DNA from: Gluconobacter morbifer G707
GTDB taxonomy: Bacteria > Pseudomonadota > Alphaproteobacteria > Acetobacterales > Acetobacteraceae
DNA: 64,000 nt
Direction of reading: 5' to 3'
Assembly: GCF_000234355.1 (NCBI RefSeq)
Contig: NZ_AGQV01000001.1
Location: 979,001 to 1,043,000 of the forward strand
The notes under the pieces were generated by a model. The model saw only the letters and a program-made list of their open reading frames with translations. It did no database searches and was not told where the DNA came from. Positions 35,213 through 42,121 of the stretch are shown piece after piece (the stretch's first letter is position 1; each line of letters begins with the position of its first letter). The position numbers and the translations under genes were made by a program.

Positions 35213-36352
35213 TCACTCCGCTTCTGCTGATGGTCCTGAAGCCCGGTTCGTCACGATGCTCTCGAGATGCGCCTTGTATGCGTCATAATGCTCCGGAGGG
35301 GCATGTTTGAAATGAGGGTCATCCATATGGGGAACGCGCCCATGATGTCCGAAATTGACCAGCCGGGCTTCAAGCAGATGGATCTTGCCGAAAATGTCGC
35401 TCTGGATGGCCAGCACGGCCAGTGCCGATCCTGCGAATGGGCCCAGAAGGTAGACCCAGAGGTTAGTCCATTCGCCTGCAAAGAGGGCAGGCGCCAGGCT
35501 GCGGGCAAAATTCGCGCTGTTCCCGGAAAGCCAGGCCGTAACGGGATTCATGAGAAAAAAGAAAATGCCGCCAATCCATGGTGTGATGCGTTTGAAGCGG
35601 GGATGGGCGGCCAGCCAGTAAAGCACGATGATCAGCAGACCTGTGACGCCGGCCTCTGAGAGAAGTGCATAGATAATCGAGATATTGGTATCAGGGATGG
35701 TTGCTCCGTAATGGGCTTCCGTTGCCAGATGCCGCCAGGATGCAAAGCATGCACCGAGCTCGTAGACGACCAGAGTGCCTGTCAGGGCACCGATGATCTG
35801 GGCGACAGCATAGCCGAGCGCGTCAATCCATACGATCTTGCGGGACAGCATGAAGGCAAGTGTCACGGAAGGGTTCAGATGGGCGCCGCTGACCTTGCCA
35901 AAAGGCGTCATGGCAGCCGCAGTGCCAGCCAGTCCGAAACCGAGGCCGCAGAGACCTGTCTGAAGAATGGGATGTTGCGCCAGATAGGCGGCGACCATGG
36001 TTCCTGGTGCCGAGAGAAGGATGACACAGATAAGCCCGATAATCATCAGGACAGCCGTTGCAACGGCTTCACATCCATAAAGGCGCCAGTGGAAAGGGCG
36101 TTCAGGATGTGGCTCCCCTGCCAGAGGGCGGTCATGGAAATGAATATGGAAGTGAGGCCAGTGAATGTTAGGTATTCGGATATGCGGAAGATGAAAATGG
36201 GAATGATGATGGGAAGTAGACTGATCGTTTTGGAGATTTTCTGAGGCTTTTACATCATCTTTCTGCGGGGGGATATTTTCTGTCATGACTATCTCTGTCT
36301 GTACGTCATTGCCCGCCAGAGGAGAGAGGAGACGGACTTCCATGTCATTCAT
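35213..36352 (-). CDS. MIP-family aquaporin with histidine-rich N-terminus
   Basis: A 379-aa channel, over 100 residues longer than AqpZ or GlpF. ATG 36352 was chosen; a TTG at 36385 would add 11 codons, and inner ATGs at 36343 and 36286 are possible. There is no good ribosome-binding site at any of them. Residues 48-73 hold 11 histidines in 26 positions. Six membrane segments follow. The two NPA boxes read NPS (HLNPSVT, 160-162) and NFA (SANFARS, 281-283), so both are altered. It may conduct water, glycerol or another small solute; His cluster could bind metal. The start region lies next to a decayed IS. Confidence 0.85.
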   Translation of the reverse strand: MNDMEVRLLSPLAGNDVQTEIVMTENIPPQKDDVKASENLQNDQSTSHHHSHFHLPHIRIPNIHWPHFHIHFHDRPLAGEPHPERPFHWRLYGCEAVATAVLMIIGLICVILLSAPGTMVAAYLAQHPILQTGLCGLGFGLAGTAAAMTPFGKVSGAHLNPSVTLAFMLSRKIVWIDALGYAVAQIIGALTGTLVVYELGACFASWRHLATEAHYGATIPDTNISIIYALLSEAGVTGLLIIVLYWLAAHPRFKRITPWIGGIFFFLMNPVTAWLSGNSANFARSLAPALFAGEWTNLWVYLLGPFAGSALAVLAIQSDIFGKIHLLEARLVNFGHHGRVPHMDDPHFKHAPPEHYDAYKAHLESIVTNRASGPSAEAE

Positions 36353-36559
36353 TATATAAGGATTGGAGTCCGGTTTTGCGTTCAAGTTTTATTTATTTCG
36401 GTTTGTATTCAAATTTGGGTGTTATGTTGCTGTCTTTTTTCGGAAAGGCTTGGGGCTATTTACAGACCAGGGTGCAATCTGCTGGAGATCAGAAATTTGC
36501 ATCGTATTCTGACGCAGCTTTCTTCTGCATGGGGTTGGAGGTGTTATGCCTTGGATTGT

Positions 36560-37609
36560 TATGGGCTCGCGCTGATCTTCTCGAGGAAGAGAAAGCGGCG
36601 TATGTTGTAGACAATATTGGCCAGTCCGATCTTCATTGTGACGCGTTCTACCTCGACTATACGGATGAACAGTCCAGTCTGGAATTTCTGATCGGCAAAG
36701 ACATGCCTCCACCCGGGACCGGATGACAGACTTTCCTGCGTTCGATCTCTGGATGTGACGAGACATGGATTTGAAATGCGGCTTTTTGCGATGGACCTTC
36801 GAGACAAAAGCCTGCTTGTCTATGAAGGCCATGTTGGTTTTTGACCGGTCAGTTGTATCCGCCCGGACATCAGACGTCGTATTGTTTCGATCAAGCAGTC
36901 TTTCTCGCAGTCTCACGTTATCACTGGCGGCCCCATCGATCGTCTTCCACTGTCTAATCAGCCTGAATTTCTGGTCGATAGAGATATTGAACTTGTAGCC
37001 AAAGAACGGGATGGCGAGATCCGTTGACGGGATCATTCTGTCCTGCTGTCGTTTGGCCTTCGTGAACTTGAGTATCCAGCGCGCATGACGGCCCTTGTGG
37101 GAGAGCTTTGACGGCTTGTCCTGCCCGGAGATCCGCTGTTTCACCATTGGTATTGCGCTGCTCTGGAATTGTTACCAATGCGGCGTCCAGGGTCTGCCCT
37201 GACATCAGCAGATAGCCTGTATCACGCAGGTTCGCGTCAAACCGATCGAATAGGTTTTCAATCGCACAGGCTTGCGGCAGGTGTTCATGGAATAGCGAGG
37301 TCGTTTTTGTGTCCGGCACACGGTTCGACAGTCCCAGACTGAGAAAGTACATGAAAGACAGACGATCGTTGGTCAAATGCTCCGCCCATTCATCGGACAG
37401 ATTATTTAATGTCTGGATCAGCAGGAGCATGAGCACCGATCGGACGGCGGGCGTCCGCTTTTGCTCCCGCCTGAATAAGCAAGAGCCTTTTCCAGGTCAA
37501 GGCGGAACACATCAAAATCCATAGTCCGGAAAAAGACTTCGAGTTACTTACCAAGACCACTCAGGCCCGCCAGGCGCTCCTCAAAATCAAAGAAATCGGA
37601 CTGCTTCAT
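36560..37609 (-). pseudogene. Decayed IS5-family transposase, copy 1
   Basis: The N-terminal part MKQSDFFDFEERLAGLSGLG starts at ATG 37609, then an in-frame TAA breaks it. Frame changes follow. Further pieces are MLMLLLIQTLNNLSDE, FFGYKFNISIDQKFRLIRQW, then KVHRKKPHF, and finally MKIGLANIVYNIRRFLFLEK near 36600. Together they cover the whole transposase on the minus strand. The end near 37690 shares a repeat-like stretch with relic 3 (GGGnTTnAAAAGCC pattern), probably the IS end. Non-functional. Confidence 0.85.
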
Positions 37610-37751
37610 GATCCATTCTACCAACCACCACAGGAAAAATGGAATCATAGGAAATGCTCATAAACCAGAAGGCTTTTAAAGCCCTTTAGGGATCTGTCGC
37701 ATAAGGTTTCCTTGCATTCAGGTGAAAATAGCACACCATCTAACTATGAGA

Positions 37752-37770
37752 ACAAACACCGGGTGTTTGT
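37752..37770. promoter_or_regulatory. Perfect 9-bp inverted repeat upstream of the AT-rich gene
   Basis: ACAAACACC-G-GGTGTTTGT, about 112 bp upstream of the AT-rich gene's start. The core CAAACACC recurs once more in direct orientation at 37793-37800. A dimeric repressor site with an extra half site is a reasonable reading; the regulator is unknown. Confidence 0.55.
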
Positions 37771-37824
37771 CGAAATGATCTTAGTCGCAGCGCAAACACC
37801 ATTCCCCAGAGGGTTATTTGCACC

Positions 37825-37840
37825 TTACCTTGAAAGGTAA
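37825..37840. promoter_or_regulatory. Perfect 7-bp inverted repeat close to the AT-rich gene
   Basis: TTACCTT-GA-AAGGTAA, 42 bp upstream of the ATG. TTGAAA inside it followed 17 bp later by AAATAA could be a -35/-10 pair, so the repeat may be an operator over a promoter. It could instead form a small hairpin in the leader. Confidence 0.5.
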
Positions 37841-37881
37841 TATCACATTGAAAAATAAAAATTTAGATTCGAGGGATTTCA

Positions 37882-39354
37882 ATGATATTTCGTGTTAGCA
37901 ATCTCGGAAACCTAGGTAATCGGATGATGCAATATATGTCTGCATCATATTTTATAGATATTTTTCCTGAATCCCGCCTTGCAAATGTTTATCTCCCGGA
38001 ATGGGGGATAGAATATAAGGATCTGGATAGTAAAGAGTTAGAAAAATTAAATATTCTGGAAATAGATGATTCTTTTGAAAATGCTAACGAAGTTATTGAA
38101 AAAATAAAAGAAATAAATCCAGATATAGTATACTTCACAGATTTTTTGCAGAAAATTTTTCTTTTCGGAGATCCCAAATTCTGGAGCCAGAAATTTGTAA
38201 ATAAAGAAGAAACTGATATAGTTTTTTCCGAAAAAGAAATAGTAATAAATATTAGAAGTAAAGAATTGCTGCGTGGGTTGTGGCAGTATCCCATTTTGCC
38301 GATAGAATTTATTAAAAAAATTGTTAGAGAAACAAAATTAGAGCCTGTTTTTGTGGGGCAGATCGAAGATAATGCTTATTGTGATGAACTCAAAGAAAAT
38401 TTCCCTTATGCTCGTTATATTAACCATGTATCTCCTCTCTTTGATTTCGAGGTATTGAGACGTTCAAAGAATTCACTAGTAGCTATAAGTACGTTTTCAT
38501 TCCTTGCTAACTGGCTGTCTGATTCTTCAAAAATAATATTACCCGTGTATGGATTTTATAGCTTTGCAGCCTCTCATGGAGAAATAGACCTATTACCTAT
38601 CGGAGATGAAAGATTCGTATTTTATTTACTTCCTTTTATAGGGGGTATTTCCGAAGCAAAAATGCGATCGATCTCTGAAGAAATATCAATAAAATCTTTT
38701 AATGTTTCAGAAGAAGATTTGAAGGCTGTTAAGTCAAGATTTCTTTCTTTTAAAGAAAATGAGGATGATACCTATGTAAATCCTACATGGTACCTAAGTC
38801 GATATCTTGATGCTTCTATGGATATAGCGAGAGGATTTTATCGAGATGCCAAGGATCATTTTTTAAGACGAGGGATTTGGGAGGGGAAAATCCCAGATCA
38901 TCCGAAAAATGAAGATAAAAAAATTGTGTCATTAAATAAAATAGCAATAATTAGCTCCACTTCCGAATATGATATTAAATATGAAGAAGAAGGTTTTGCA
39001 AAAAATTCAGTCGATTCAAGTGCTGTGGAGAGATATTCATTCCATACCAGTAGAGAGATTTTCCCTTGGTTGGAAATTGATTTGGAGAAAGTCTGCAAGA
39101 TATGTAGAATTGATATTTATAATAGGGATTGTAATGATCTGGTAAGAGATAGATGTATACCTCTTTATGTTTATGGATCAGAAAAAAAAATTAGCTGGAA
39201 TTTGGTGCATGTAGAGGAAAAATCATTTGGTGGAAGCTATAATGATCATTTAACTATTTATTTGTACCCCAATATTTTTGCAAGATTTGTTAAAATTACA
39301 ACCCCCAATGATGACTGTCTTCATTTGAAAAAAGTTCATGTATATGGTGAATGA
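37882..39354 (+). CDS. AT-rich island protein: glycosyltransferase-like, linker and discoidin-like modules
   Basis: A 490-aa protein with GAGGGA before its ATG. Three parts are visible. Residues 1-290 resemble alpha-1,2-fucosyltransferase-type enzymes: NLGNLGNRMMQYM at 7-19, IVINIRSKELLRG at 120-132 in the place of the HxRRGDY-like strand, and STFSFLANWLS at 203-213. Residues 299-338 (NPTWYLSRYLDA...GIWEGKIP) match the NPDWYL...YGxxEGR.P-type linker seen in bacterial glycosyltransferases. Residues 350-488 look like an F5/8 type C (discoidin) sugar-binding domain. The gene is far poorer in G+C than its neighbours and lies between IS relics, so it was probably acquired. Activity unknown. Confidence 0.75.
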   Translation: MIFRVSNLGNLGNRMMQYMSASYFIDIFPESRLANVYLPEWGIEYKDLDSKELEKLNILEIDDSFENANEVIEKIKEINPDIVYFTDFLQKIFLFGDPKFWSQKFVNKEETDIVFSEKEIVINIRSKELLRGLWQYPILPIEFIKKIVRETKLEPVFVGQIEDNAYCDELKENFPYARYINHVSPLFDFEVLRRSKNSLVAISTFSFLANWLSDSSKIILPVYGFYSFAASHGEIDLLPIGDERFVFYLLPFIGGISEAKMRSISEEISIKSFNVSEEDLKAVKSRFLSFKENEDDTYVNPTWYLSRYLDASMDIARGFYRDAKDHFLRRGIWEGKIPDHPKNEDKKIVSLNKIAIISSTSEYDIKYEEEGFAKNSVDSSAVERYSFHTSREIFPWLEIDLEKVCKICRIDIYNRDCNDLVRDRCIPLYVYGSEKKISWNLVHVEEKSFGGSYNDHLTIYLYPNIFARFVKITTPNDDCLHLKKVHVYGE

Positions 39355-39416
39355 GCTACTTAAGTGCGACTGCAAAAACTGGAGAGCCTAAAGGCCGTTA
39401 ATTGATTTCCTATGCA

Positions 39417-39800
39417 TTTGGGCGCGCGTTGATGACTACTGCGTCCTGAATGGGATTATCTTTGTTAATCGAAACGGTCTGCTCTGGCGCGATATGCCCT
39501 GAAAGTATGAGCTATTGCTGGAGACACTGGGGCGACATAGGTGTTTTCATACGGATGATGGGTGACCTGTCTTCCAAGAAGGCAGAGCCACAGGTCGTTA
39601 TGATTGATGCGACCTAATCTCAAAGGCATGTCACGCGACTTCTAGCTTGCGGATAAAAAGGAGATCCAAGGCGACTGATCTAACGGACAAAAGGCAGCAT
39701 AAATATGAAATTACATGTCGTCACAGGCTGGAATGGACATTCGCTCAACTTCTTCCTGACAGCAGATCAGATCAGAAATTACACGGGGTGACTGCCTGAG
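39417..39800 (+). pseudogene. Decayed IS5-family transposase, copy 2 (different branch, + strand)
   Basis: Broken frames on the + strand spell VDDYCVLNGIIFVNRNGLLW, then FIRMMGDLSSKKAEPQVVMIDAT, then MKLHVVTGWNGHSLNFFLTA and DQIRNYTG. These match consecutive parts of IS5/IS427-type transposases (the MIDAT Asp is the first catalytic residue). Several stops and shifts; the 5' and 3' ends are missing. Confidence 0.8.
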
Positions 39801-39905
39801 CGTCTATAGGATGTACCTGTTTTTGTACGATAACTTTGACGGTTTGTTCTGCCAGTTTTTTTTGATGCGTCCTTTCTACAGGCCGGCCTTTTCAGCATTT
39901 GTATT

Positions 39906-40368
39906 GTGCTGCCTCAGGACTGCTATGAGTGCTGCGTTCAGGATCTGACTGAATGTCGGCAGATATTCGGCATTCCTCAGGGTTACGTCAAAGCGATTCA
40001 ACAGAACTTCAATTGCGCCAGCCTGGGTCAGGCGCCCGCAGAACAGCCAGATCGTTTTGGCGTCAGGCGCCCGATCCGAGAGGCCGAATCCCAGAAAGCA
40101 AAGGGCAGGGAATCGTTGATCGGGTATCCTTTCCGTTCAACTGAGAGATTGTTCAAAGTCTTCTGGATCATCAGGATCCTGAACATTGGTACCTGATCAA
40201 ACGGAGGACGACTGCCTTCTTCCATTCGCATGGGCCAGAGCCTCGTCCAGATCGGATCGGAACAGTTCAAGATCTACTGCCCGCGAAAACGCTTCGAGTT
40301 GATCATCAAGCCCGCTTAACCGAACAGGCCGGTCCTCAATAACATTCGAAGAAACCCGGCTGCTTCAT
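39906..40368 (-). pseudogene. Decayed IS5-family transposase, copy 3 (5' part only)
   Basis: On the minus strand, starting at ATG 40368: MKQPGFFE, then stops, SGLDDQLEAFSRAVDLELF, RSDLDEALAHANG, and MFRILMIQKTLNNLSVE. It is of the same type as copy 1, with many frame breaks. Only about the first third of the transposase is left. The end near 40445 (GGGTTCAAAAAGCCC on this strand) resembles the end of copy 1. It flanks the AT-rich gene on the other side. Confidence 0.8.
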
Positions 40369-40481
40369 GCTAGCTCCCTCCAATCAAGACAGAAAAAAAG
40401 AATTACAGAGAGCTATTCAAAAACCAAAGGGCTTTTTGAACCCTCCAAGCGGCTGAACGAAAGTGGGGGTGGTCAGATAGA

Positions 40482-40796
40482 TCAGAATTGACCCGCTGTG
40501 TTTCCTGTCCGCTTGGCGTCCTGTTCGCACATGTATTTTCCGTGTGCGGTGCTGCCGTACCAGAAGCTGCCGGAAAGGTGATAGACGTGCGTTGCGGTAT
40601 TGACCCAGACCTTGTTGCAGTTCTCCATCTCGTCCTCTGAGGTCACTGTTACCTTTTCAGCGACCGGACGGACGGAGTTGTTGTCTGTCCGTTGCTGGGA
40701 TGACCTGACAACGGCATCATCAATCTTGGGAGCGGCAGCCATTGCCGATCCTGTGAAAAGACCCATCATGAAAATTGAGTAGAGTACTTTTTTCAT
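40482..40796 (-). CDS. Small secreted protein of unknown function
   Basis: A 104-aa protein with signal peptide MKKVLYSIFMMGLFTGSAMA (20). The mature C-terminal half VWVNTATHVYHLSGSFWYG with KYMCEQDAKRTG resembles a small domain seen in other bacterial secreted proteins (VW-N-T-x-YH...WYG...GKYM-E-DA). Two cysteines (in ENCNKV and YMCEQ) may form a disulfide. It is divergent from the Fur-box region; a promoter in that gap could serve it. Function unknown. Confidence 0.75.
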   Translation of the reverse strand: MKKVLYSIFMMGLFTGSAMAAAPKIDDAVVRSSQQRTDNNSVRPVAEKVTVTSEDEMENCNKVWVNTATHVYHLSGSFWYGSTAHGKYMCEQDAKRTGNTAGQF

Positions 40797-41113
40797 GACT
40801 GTATGCTCCTTGCTGGAATAAAGTCTGGGTCAAATCATACAATCAACTGAAGTATATGAGGAAAGTCACGAGATATTTACTATACTATATAAAAATAAAA
40901 ATTCTGTTATTGAAGCCTATTTCAGAAGTTTACTAACGAAACTGTGAATTTTCATTCTTTTGATGTCGGAAAGCATTTTCTGGTTTTCTCTGAAGGCGCA
41001 AACGGACCGATGAAGCGAAAACTCGTGCAAAAGATTTTATTTGATATTGATAATCGTTCTCACTTATCATGAATCCGGATGGATTATGTCGTCATCAGGG
41101 AAGGTAAGCCGTC
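40797..41113. other. Divergent AT-rich intergenic region holding a Fur box
   Basis: No gene is supported here. The segment is AT-rich from 40850 to 40990 and holds the Fur-type box at 41048-41062. The ribosome-binding site of the 335-aa protein is GGAAGG near 41099. Confidence 0.5.
41048..41062. promoter_or_regulatory. Fur-type box
   Basis: TGATAAT-C-GTTCTCA follows the 7-1-7 inverted-repeat layout of Fur sites (TGATAATnATTATCA): the left arm is exact and the right arm agrees at 5 of 7 positions. It lies 52 bp upstream of the 335-aa gene's start and about 250 bp from the small secreted-protein gene. Iron repression of one or both is inferred. Confidence 0.65.
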
Positions 41114-42121
41114 ATGAGCGAGACGAGAGACAGCGTCGCAGGCTGGCACCTCAAGAAATCCAGGCCTTACCGGTGTCTGGATTATTTCAATCCCCGCGCA
41201 TCATTTGCCGGGCAGGCCAACACGCTTGTCACCCGCTTCCGGGCCGTACAGGCGCTTTGCGAGGCTGGTGACCGGACGATCGGTCTGACGCAGCTCCGGA
41301 ACGAACTGGCGTTTCATCTCGTCAAGATGTCGCGCTGGTGGCAGTTCGAGTTCTGTCCCAATACGGTGCTGGGTGTCATGCCCTGCCTGTTCATTGCCTA
41401 TGTTCAGGCTCATGTGGCGCGTGTCGTTGAGGACTGCTCCCTTTACGATCTCTTTACCCGCCAGAACTATCTTCATGCCAATGACAGCGGACATGTCATG
41501 CTGCTGGGCCATGAAACCGGCTGGAAAACCGGCAGACGGACTTTTTTCGGCGTGGATGGCAAAAAGGGGTTTCGCGTTGGTGTTCTGGGAGGAGACGGGC
41601 TGCTGCGCTGGACGGGAAAAGTCTTTCAGGATTTTCCCCATGCCTGGTTACAGGGACGTCTCATCAGGGCGCAGCAGGACCGTGATCCCGTTGTGACGGA
41701 AGAGACACTTCATGCCATGGAAGAACATGCCCGACTCAGACCGTGGATCCAGAAGTATTTTCACGGCTGGAGCGATGATGAAACCGTTCAGGATTATCGA
41801 GCGCTCCAGAAAGAACTTGAGGCCTGCAGAACGGTATTTGGCCGTGTCCAGTTTGAACCTCTGGAAAACAGCTTTGCATTCCGCATGACTGAAATTGCCT
41901 TCAGGAGACGCATGACGCTGGCCGATCTGGTGCATGAGATGGAGGGCACTGACCTGACGCACAGGGAGGCCAATGTCATCAAGCGTCAGGCCCGTGCCTA
42001 TGTGGCGACTGCTCTTGACCGGATGCTGCGTGAAGAAAAAACGCTCATGCTGGACCGGGTCATTTCCTATCTGCCCCGGCGTTGCAGTCGGGGCGGACAA
42101 TCGCCTGAAAATACGCCCTGA
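41114..42121 (+). CDS. Protein of unknown function behind a Fur box
   Basis: A 335-aa soluble-looking protein, not recognised. It has a Trp-rich segment MSRWWQFEFCPNTVLGVMPCL at about 75-95, HANDSGHVMLLGHETGWKTG at about 121-140, FQDFPHAWLQGRLI at about 171-184, and a basic C-terminal third rich in Arg. No signal peptide or membrane segment. Start chosen by GGAAGG ten bases upstream. A Fur box lies upstream and a terminator directly follows. Convergent with the TonB-dependent receptor, so an iron link is plausible but not shown. Confidence 0.7.
   Translation: MSETRDSVAGWHLKKSRPYRCLDYFNPRASFAGQANTLVTRFRAVQALCEAGDRTIGLTQLRNELAFHLVKMSRWWQFEFCPNTVLGVMPCLFIAYVQAHVARVVEDCSLYDLFTRQNYLHANDSGHVMLLGHETGWKTGRRTFFGVDGKKGFRVGVLGGDGLLRWTGKVFQDFPHAWLQGRLIRAQQDRDPVVTEETLHAMEEHARLRPWIQKYFHGWSDDETVQDYRALQKELEACRTVFGRVQFEPLENSFAFRMTEIAFRRRMTLADLVHEMEGTDLTHREANVIKRQARAYVATALDRMLREEKTLMLDRVISYLPRRCSRGGQSPENTP

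Follow-up and report, generated by a model that had tools for sequence, protein, structure and literature searches.

What does a lone, AT-rich gene encode in a genome of very different composition, and how might its product act? The gene in question lies in a 64,000-nucleotide stretch of the Gluconobacter morbifer G707 genome, which is the whole stretch of DNA that we analyzed (here called the window) and corresponds to positions 979001-1043000 of one contig in a genome of 2.89 Mb. A preliminary description had read the product as a fucosyltransferase-like domain, a linker, and a discoidin-like domain encoded by a foreign gene. The gene and these three parts are as follows.

37882..39354, + strand: gene for a 490-aa GT11-like glycosyltransferase with a C-terminal F-type-lectin-like (discoidin) domain, from the ORF and its composition
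37882..38751, + strand: GT-B catalytic-type domain, residues 1-290, from the predicted fold
38767..38904, + strand: helical linker module WYxxxYxDA...HYxxxG, residues about 296-341, conserved in homologues
38911..39351, + strand: F-type-lectin-like/discoidin domain, residues 344-490, from the predicted fold

The reading frame opens with ATG and runs for 490 codons with zero internal stops. Its GC content (0.323) and GC3 (0.242) lie far from those of 36 comparison ORFs, hand-picked from the window as probable genes (0.590 +/- 0.021 and 0.676 +/- 0.049), and its relative synonymous codon usage correlates negatively with theirs (r = -0.33). The gene is thus A+T-rich and foreign-looking, as had been supposed, in both base composition and codon use. 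That it stands out by A+T richness from every neighbor is true of the genes but does not extend to the flanking relic DNA, which has a GC content of 0.42-0.48 in 1-kb blocks. An Rfam scan of 36000-41200 gave zero matches at gathering scores, and promoter and terminator patterns were no more frequent in 37600-39500 than in shuffles. The motifs quoted in the preliminary description are all present in the protein (GNLGNRM at residues 9-15, VINIRSKELL at 121-130, STFSFLANWLS at 203-213, and NPTWYL at 300-305). The start methionine encoded at 37882 is identical in homologues P0004, P0005, and P0006. The annotation of two database copies, P0002 (the window's own) and P0003, begins 18 codons downstream, at Met19, and these entries therefore omit the conserved GNLGNRM (window 37882-37935).

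Whether the N-terminal part is a glycosyltransferase was approached through its predicted fold and its homologues. Because the matches listed by Foldseek and VIA for the full-length model covered almost only the lectin half, save for a few long, weak alignments, residues 1-290 were folded alone. The best 25 matches by Z score were AtFUT1, POFUT1/2, FUT8, and NodZ, all of them distant (3.6-5.6 A over 203-235 residues), and GT9/heptosyltransferase structures came next (Z 7.9-9.1), only about 2 Z units below the fucosyltransferases. By Foldseek alone, two tetrahydrobiopterin glucosyltransferase entries ranked above AtFUT1. The prediction thus places the N-terminal part inside the GT-B fucosyltransferase folds, as the preliminary description had anticipated. 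Profile searches touch the GT11 family through the relatives and not through the window protein itself, which had no match to PF01531 (GT11) at E <= 1 and no Pfam or NCBIfam match in its N-terminal half. In a 29-row homologue alignment, 20 members match PF01531 at E <= 0.1 (best, 1.8e-06). Of 150 genomes searched from the taxonomic family with this model, three gave a match at E <= 0.001, one of them over the cut-off, and the genome of G707 gave none. PF01531 is a poor detector for this GT11-like branch, a family which comprises at least 311 proteins at E <= 0.001.

Two short segments of this domain are of particular interest.

38242..38271, + strand: VINIRSKELL, residues 121-130, counterpart of the HxRRxD motif, with R125 invariant in the family
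38488..38520, + strand: STFSFLANWLS, residues 203-213, with S203, F205, S206, A209, W211, L212, and S213 invariant

We take STFSFLANWLS to be the counterpart of the C-terminal GT11 motif (STFSW-type), and the G-N-x-G-N-[RQ]-M start presumably corresponds to the first GT11 motif. The GT-B fold, here as predicted, is common to the window protein, the GT11 alpha-1,2-fucosyltransferases (WbsJ, WbwK, and FutC; PF01531), and the wider fold group. Where GT11 enzymes have H-x-R-R-x-D, the homologue family usually has N-x-R-x-x-[DE], with R125 in 29/29 rows and N123 in at least 90%. In the window protein the segment reads NIRSKE, so that the first arginine and the acidic residue at the D position are kept, whereas the histidine and the second arginine are absent. 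This altered strand had led to the proposal that the protein may bind rather than transfer, that is, that it is a catalytically dead glycosyltransferase fold retained as a binding scaffold. The two missing residues are what speaks for such a scaffold, but the change is family-wide and occurs also in transferase-only proteins that have no lectin; the alignment has 18 invariant columns, R125 among them; and the first arginine is the residue reported to be critical in an alpha-1,2-fucosyltransferase (PMC4202792). The proposal is thus not upheld, and we consider a dead scaffold decidedly unlikely.

The C-terminal part was assigned more directly. PF00754 (F5/8 type C) matches residues 359-476 with 34.4 bits against a gathering score of 28.2, and the discoidin-like fold claimed for it is supported in this way. 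The predicted structure has the F-type beta-sandwich, and the best 10 structural matches found by VIA for the tail are all fucose-binding lectins, at 21-24% identity. Candidate sugar-binding residues are as follows.

39043..39045, + strand: H388, first residue of the putative sugar-binding basic triad, invariant in 16/16 rows
39124..39126, + strand: R415, second residue of the putative triad, invariant in 16/16 rows
39145..39153, + strand: R422 and R424, candidates for the third basic residue (R424 invariant in 16/16 rows, R422 by eel spacing)

The fucose motif of F-type lectins is given as HX24RXDX4(R/K) and their cation motif as hhDGx (both as stated in PMC5712786). Among the structures that we compared (eel AAA, 1k12; striped bass FBP32, 3cqo; and the pneumococcal fucose-binding module, 2j1r/2j1t/2j22), the eel lectin has the spacing found in the window tail, H388-x26-R415-x6-R422 (His52, Arg79, and Arg86 in eel). 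The family-invariant residue is R424, not R422, which makes the third basic residue ambiguous. Unlike these lectins, the window tail has its acidic residue displaced, at +1 instead of +2 after R415, with C417 at the position of the motif D; its SVDSS is only a partial hhDGx, to which relatives L006 (AVDGT) and L047 (ALDGN) come closer; and it is fused to a glycosyltransferase.

As for the linker, stretches resembling it (39-47% identical) are also found in short ORFs without the remaining domains. An assignment to a named module was tried and dropped: when residues 295-341 were used as a profile, the WY...HY repeats of a polysaccharide glycosyltransferase of the same genome matched only weakly (best i-E 0.008), and no homology is therefore claimed.

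A rival reading would be a true GDP-L-fucose-dependent fucosyltransferase whose lectin recognizes the fucosylated glycan that the enzyme itself makes, so that fucosylation becomes processive or clustered. The fold neighbors of the catalytic domain are fucosyltransferases, the nearest folds of the tail bind fucose, and PF01531 is touched by the 20 alignment members mentioned above. Against it stand the NIRSKE segment and the donor pathway. We searched 15 genomes, the G707 genome and 14 others with the GT11-like domain, which were chosen rather than random (Gluconobacter sp. Dm-62, six with full-length matches, and seven more with the domain; 12/14 at least 90% complete). None of the 15 passed the cut-off of 500 for the GDP-L-fucose synthase model (Fcl, NCBIfam; 49 bits in G707 and 132 at best), and none passed that of the Fkp salvage model; these cut-offs are strict, and a diverged synthase would escape them. 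Control genomes did pass, 4/14 for Fcl and 1/14 for Fkp. At least in the genomes examined, the donor of the GT11-like family is probably not L-fucose, and we regard a genuine fucosyltransferase as unlikely here.

A different GDP-sugar could be made by this bacterium. Its genome encodes a Gmd over the cut-off (TIGR01472, 419.6 versus 415). Beside it lie genes for a reductase/epimerase-type protein, for an HddA-like kinase, and for a fusion of a nucleotidyltransferase with a GmhB-like phosphatase; the kinase and the fusion both score below cut-off. From this gene set, a GDP-heptose or GDP-6-deoxy-sugar route appears plausible. The Gmd, kinase, and fusion genes lie in a polysaccharide-type locus (L038; C19:216000-235000), which also holds a glycosyltransferase ORF of 1250 aa that combines GT2 and GT1-type domains with WY...HY repeats. 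Inspection by eye alone also pointed to a dTDP-rhamnose-type cluster on contig C14.

The acceptor was considered through the neighborhoods of relatives. A related-locus search returned 0 loci with the single protein as query and 47 with alignment A1 as query; 12/47 have a separate GT92-type (8) or GT61-type (4) ORF on the same stretch. Transferase genes cluster with one another in any case, and this count is only suggestive. Three individual loci are more specific. An alphaproteobacterial metagenome-assembled genome encodes a 974-aa protein (L054:6813-9737) that joins a GT92 domain (residues 94-387), the tail (397-538), and a GT11-like domain (584-925). On a Gluconobacter oxydans plasmid (NZ_MZ127818.1, an "unverified" record), the GT11-like CDS, which stops inside the lectin part, adjoins a GT61 gene and another glycosyltransferase gene. 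In a polysaccharide locus on an Enterobacter plasmid, a GT11-like gene without the tail accompanies GT2, GT92, and transporter genes. This fusion and the two plasmid neighborhoods suggest that the GT11-like, GT92, and GT61 transferase types serve one polymer, and they make the earlier idea that the protein could modify a surface glycan a plausible one.

The tail itself is not confined to this gene. In the G707 genome, the window gene is one of four lectin-tagged AT-rich genes. The others are a GT92/GT2-type gene with the tail (L039:6670-8034; PF01697, PF13704, and PF00754; GC 0.308) and a GT61 gene (L040:5988-7613; PF04577, with PF00754 at 28.1 versus 28.2 bits; GC 0.290), which lie on two contigs, and a gene on contig C9 (L138:506-1814) in a stretch of 29-33% GC, whose N-terminal part is related to L124, L132, and L113 and whose reading frame looks interrupted. 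Dm-62 likewise has GT11-like, GT92, and GT61 lectin-tagged versions, each of 32-33% GC, and its GT92-type (75%) and GT61-type (26%) genes share a contig, with about 4.3 kb between them. Among 26 genomes of the genus, a tail profile gave 36 matches in 18, of which 33 were examined (30 as loci, 2 from G707 via L040 and L138, and 1 from Dm-62 via L137). Many of these ORFs, though not all, are strongly AT-rich: for 30 distinct lectin-tagged ORFs, those of G707 included, the median GC is 0.39 (range, 0.29-0.50), with 15 below 0.40. The combination of tail and transferase that the preliminary description had singled out as unusual is therefore real, but the gene is not alone in having it.

The different N-terminal domains joined to one kind of tail are the more interesting part of the finding. 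Pfam searches of 20 of these ORFs gave 9 GT92/GT2_4, 10 without an N-terminal family, and 1 GT11-like, the last being the Dm-62 copy (L109), assigned by homology only. When 30 lectin-tagged proteins, chosen by us from the genus and beyond, were compared in their N-terminal parts by blastp (E 1e-3), these parts fell into five unlinked groups (10 GT11-like, 10 GT92, 5, 3, and 2 GT61), between which remote kinship is possible. Two groups have no Pfam match (L107, L122, L129, L130, and L131; and L113, L124, and L132) and possibly represent undescribed transferase families. In a tree of the tails, the window copy groups with the GT11-type tails of Dm-62 and G327 (100/100), and the deep forks are not resolved. 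Tails mostly go with N-terminal type, and the domain combinations therefore seem old.

How the gene reached its present site was examined through its flanks, where the following relics were found.

36552..37685, - strand: degenerate IS5-family relic, upstream, 74% to the IS5 of pGOX4; its ORF 36954-37436 matches PF05598 and NF033581
39425..39796, no strand assigned: relic of another IS, in two pieces, 71-72% to a stretch of L141
39816..40447, - strand: degenerate, partial IS5-family relic, downstream, 72% to the IS5 of pGOX4

The description of the gene as IS-bounded stands in a weak sense, as IS5-family relics lie on both sides, but not in the sense of a composite transposon. Over 564 bp the two agree at just 65%, and both are degenerate, one of them partial; a fresh composite transposon is ruled out since the copies are not near-identical, and the relics are old. 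An undisturbed empty site was sought through the flanking genes, and none was obtained. The aquaporin gene at 35213-36385 has orthologues 71-74% identical in four other genomes of the genus, and that gene alone is common to the loci compared, besides weak, short matches and IS pieces. On the other side, a 335-aa ORF at 41114-42121 has only a weak DUF455 match (21.7 versus 34.3 bits) and matched nothing in the other 25 genomes searched from the genus. The window protein had no match in 50,697 phage records and two in 72,556 plasmid records (30-31% identity).

Such surroundings raise the question of whether the gene is selfish or decaying cargo caught between IS relics, with no role in the host. 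Consistent with this are the relics on both sides, the composition far from that of the host, the absence of cluster partners next to the gene, and the interrupted appearance of the similar gene on contig C9. The reading frame is intact, however, and copies exist in OJB (87%), Dm-62 (70%), and metagenomic relatives. The Dm-62 copy (GC 0.33) is surrounded by DNA of about 60% GC, and the stretches compared have only the gene and the 30 bases before it in common with the window. Identity between the two genes at codon positions 1, 2, and 3 is 0.75, 0.85, and 0.53, a pattern which is as expected of a maintained protein under purifying selection. The GT11-like, GT92, and GT61 lectin-tagged types also recur in Dm-62, and we think mere cargo very improbable.

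Taken together, these observations are best explained, in our view, by a soluble GT-B transferase that uses a non-fucose GDP-sugar, docks by its lectin on a surface polysaccharide, and entered the genome by horizontal transfer, like a few other solitary AT-rich genes with a similar tail; we consider this explanation, as a whole, fairly probable. It builds on the two predicted folds, the conserved motifs, the composition, the common tail, and the absence of GDP-L-fucose genes at full score, from which we infer transferase activity, donor, acceptor, and docking role. Weighing against it are the distance of the structural matches, the N-terminal half without a Pfam or NCBIfam match, the displaced acidic residue and ambiguous third basic residue of the tail, and the fact that no polysaccharide locus lies next to the gene in the window. 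In the model, no segment precedes the first strand of the GT fold, and the enzyme, a member of an uncharacterized GT11-like clade, would therefore probably be cytoplasmic. Judging by fold and conservation, it may bind via R125 a donor such as a GDP-6-deoxyhexose, GDP-mannose, or a GDP-heptose type. The tail would recognize a sugar already present on the lipid-linked surface polysaccharide and dock the catalytic domain there, a side-chain sugar would be transferred to the polymer, and the decorated polymer would be exported.

The docking role is suggested by the fold of the tail and by two enzyme groups. GnT-IVa (MGAT4A) resembles the window protein in being a glycosyltransferase with a C-terminal beta-sandwich lectin; this CBM32-like lectin recognizes the glycan that the enzyme produces, and activity is described as impaired when the lectin carries a point mutation (PMC9296478). 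Unlike the window protein, GnT-IVa is an animal Golgi enzyme of another GT family with a different, GlcNAc-binding site. The polypeptide GalNAc-transferases (GT27) are described as a catalytic domain, a linker, and a lectin by which the enzyme is directed to substrate that already carries glycans (PMC5716993); they differ in their GT-A fold, protein acceptor, and ricin-type beta-trefoil lectin (lectin type as given in PMC9296478). A bacterial parallel for reading such a polymer on the cytoplasmic side is Wzt, the O-antigen ABC transporter subunit, whose carbohydrate-binding domain is reported to read lipid-linked polysaccharide, although Wzt is a transporter and not a glycosyltransferase (PMC9445017).

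A broader reading, which we offer tentatively and would not yet expect to hold in full, is that acetic acid bacteria have a scattered, exchangeable set of single, mostly AT-rich glycan-decorating genes, of three unrelated families or more, possibly as many as five, in which one cytoplasmic F-type-lectin-like tail would address the same surface polysaccharide, and that the GT11-like branch, along with the replacement of H by N in HxRRxD, exchanged L-fucose for another GDP-sugar. Animal enzymes already provide examples of glycosyltransferases steered by a lectin domain; the present set is bacterial, with one lectin-like tail on several N-terminal domains, at least two of which belong to other glycosyltransferase families. 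A search of the literature, mostly open-access, found no title or abstract start on discoidin or F-type-lectin tails in glycosyltransferases of bacteria. The resulting model is testable: lone, horizontally moved genes could alter the bacterial coat without rewriting a polysaccharide locus. The arrangement of the tail also varies, as two Gluconobacter genomes have ORFs of at least 640 aa in which the lectin-like domain is N-terminal (L043:16599-18608 and L134:1018-2934).
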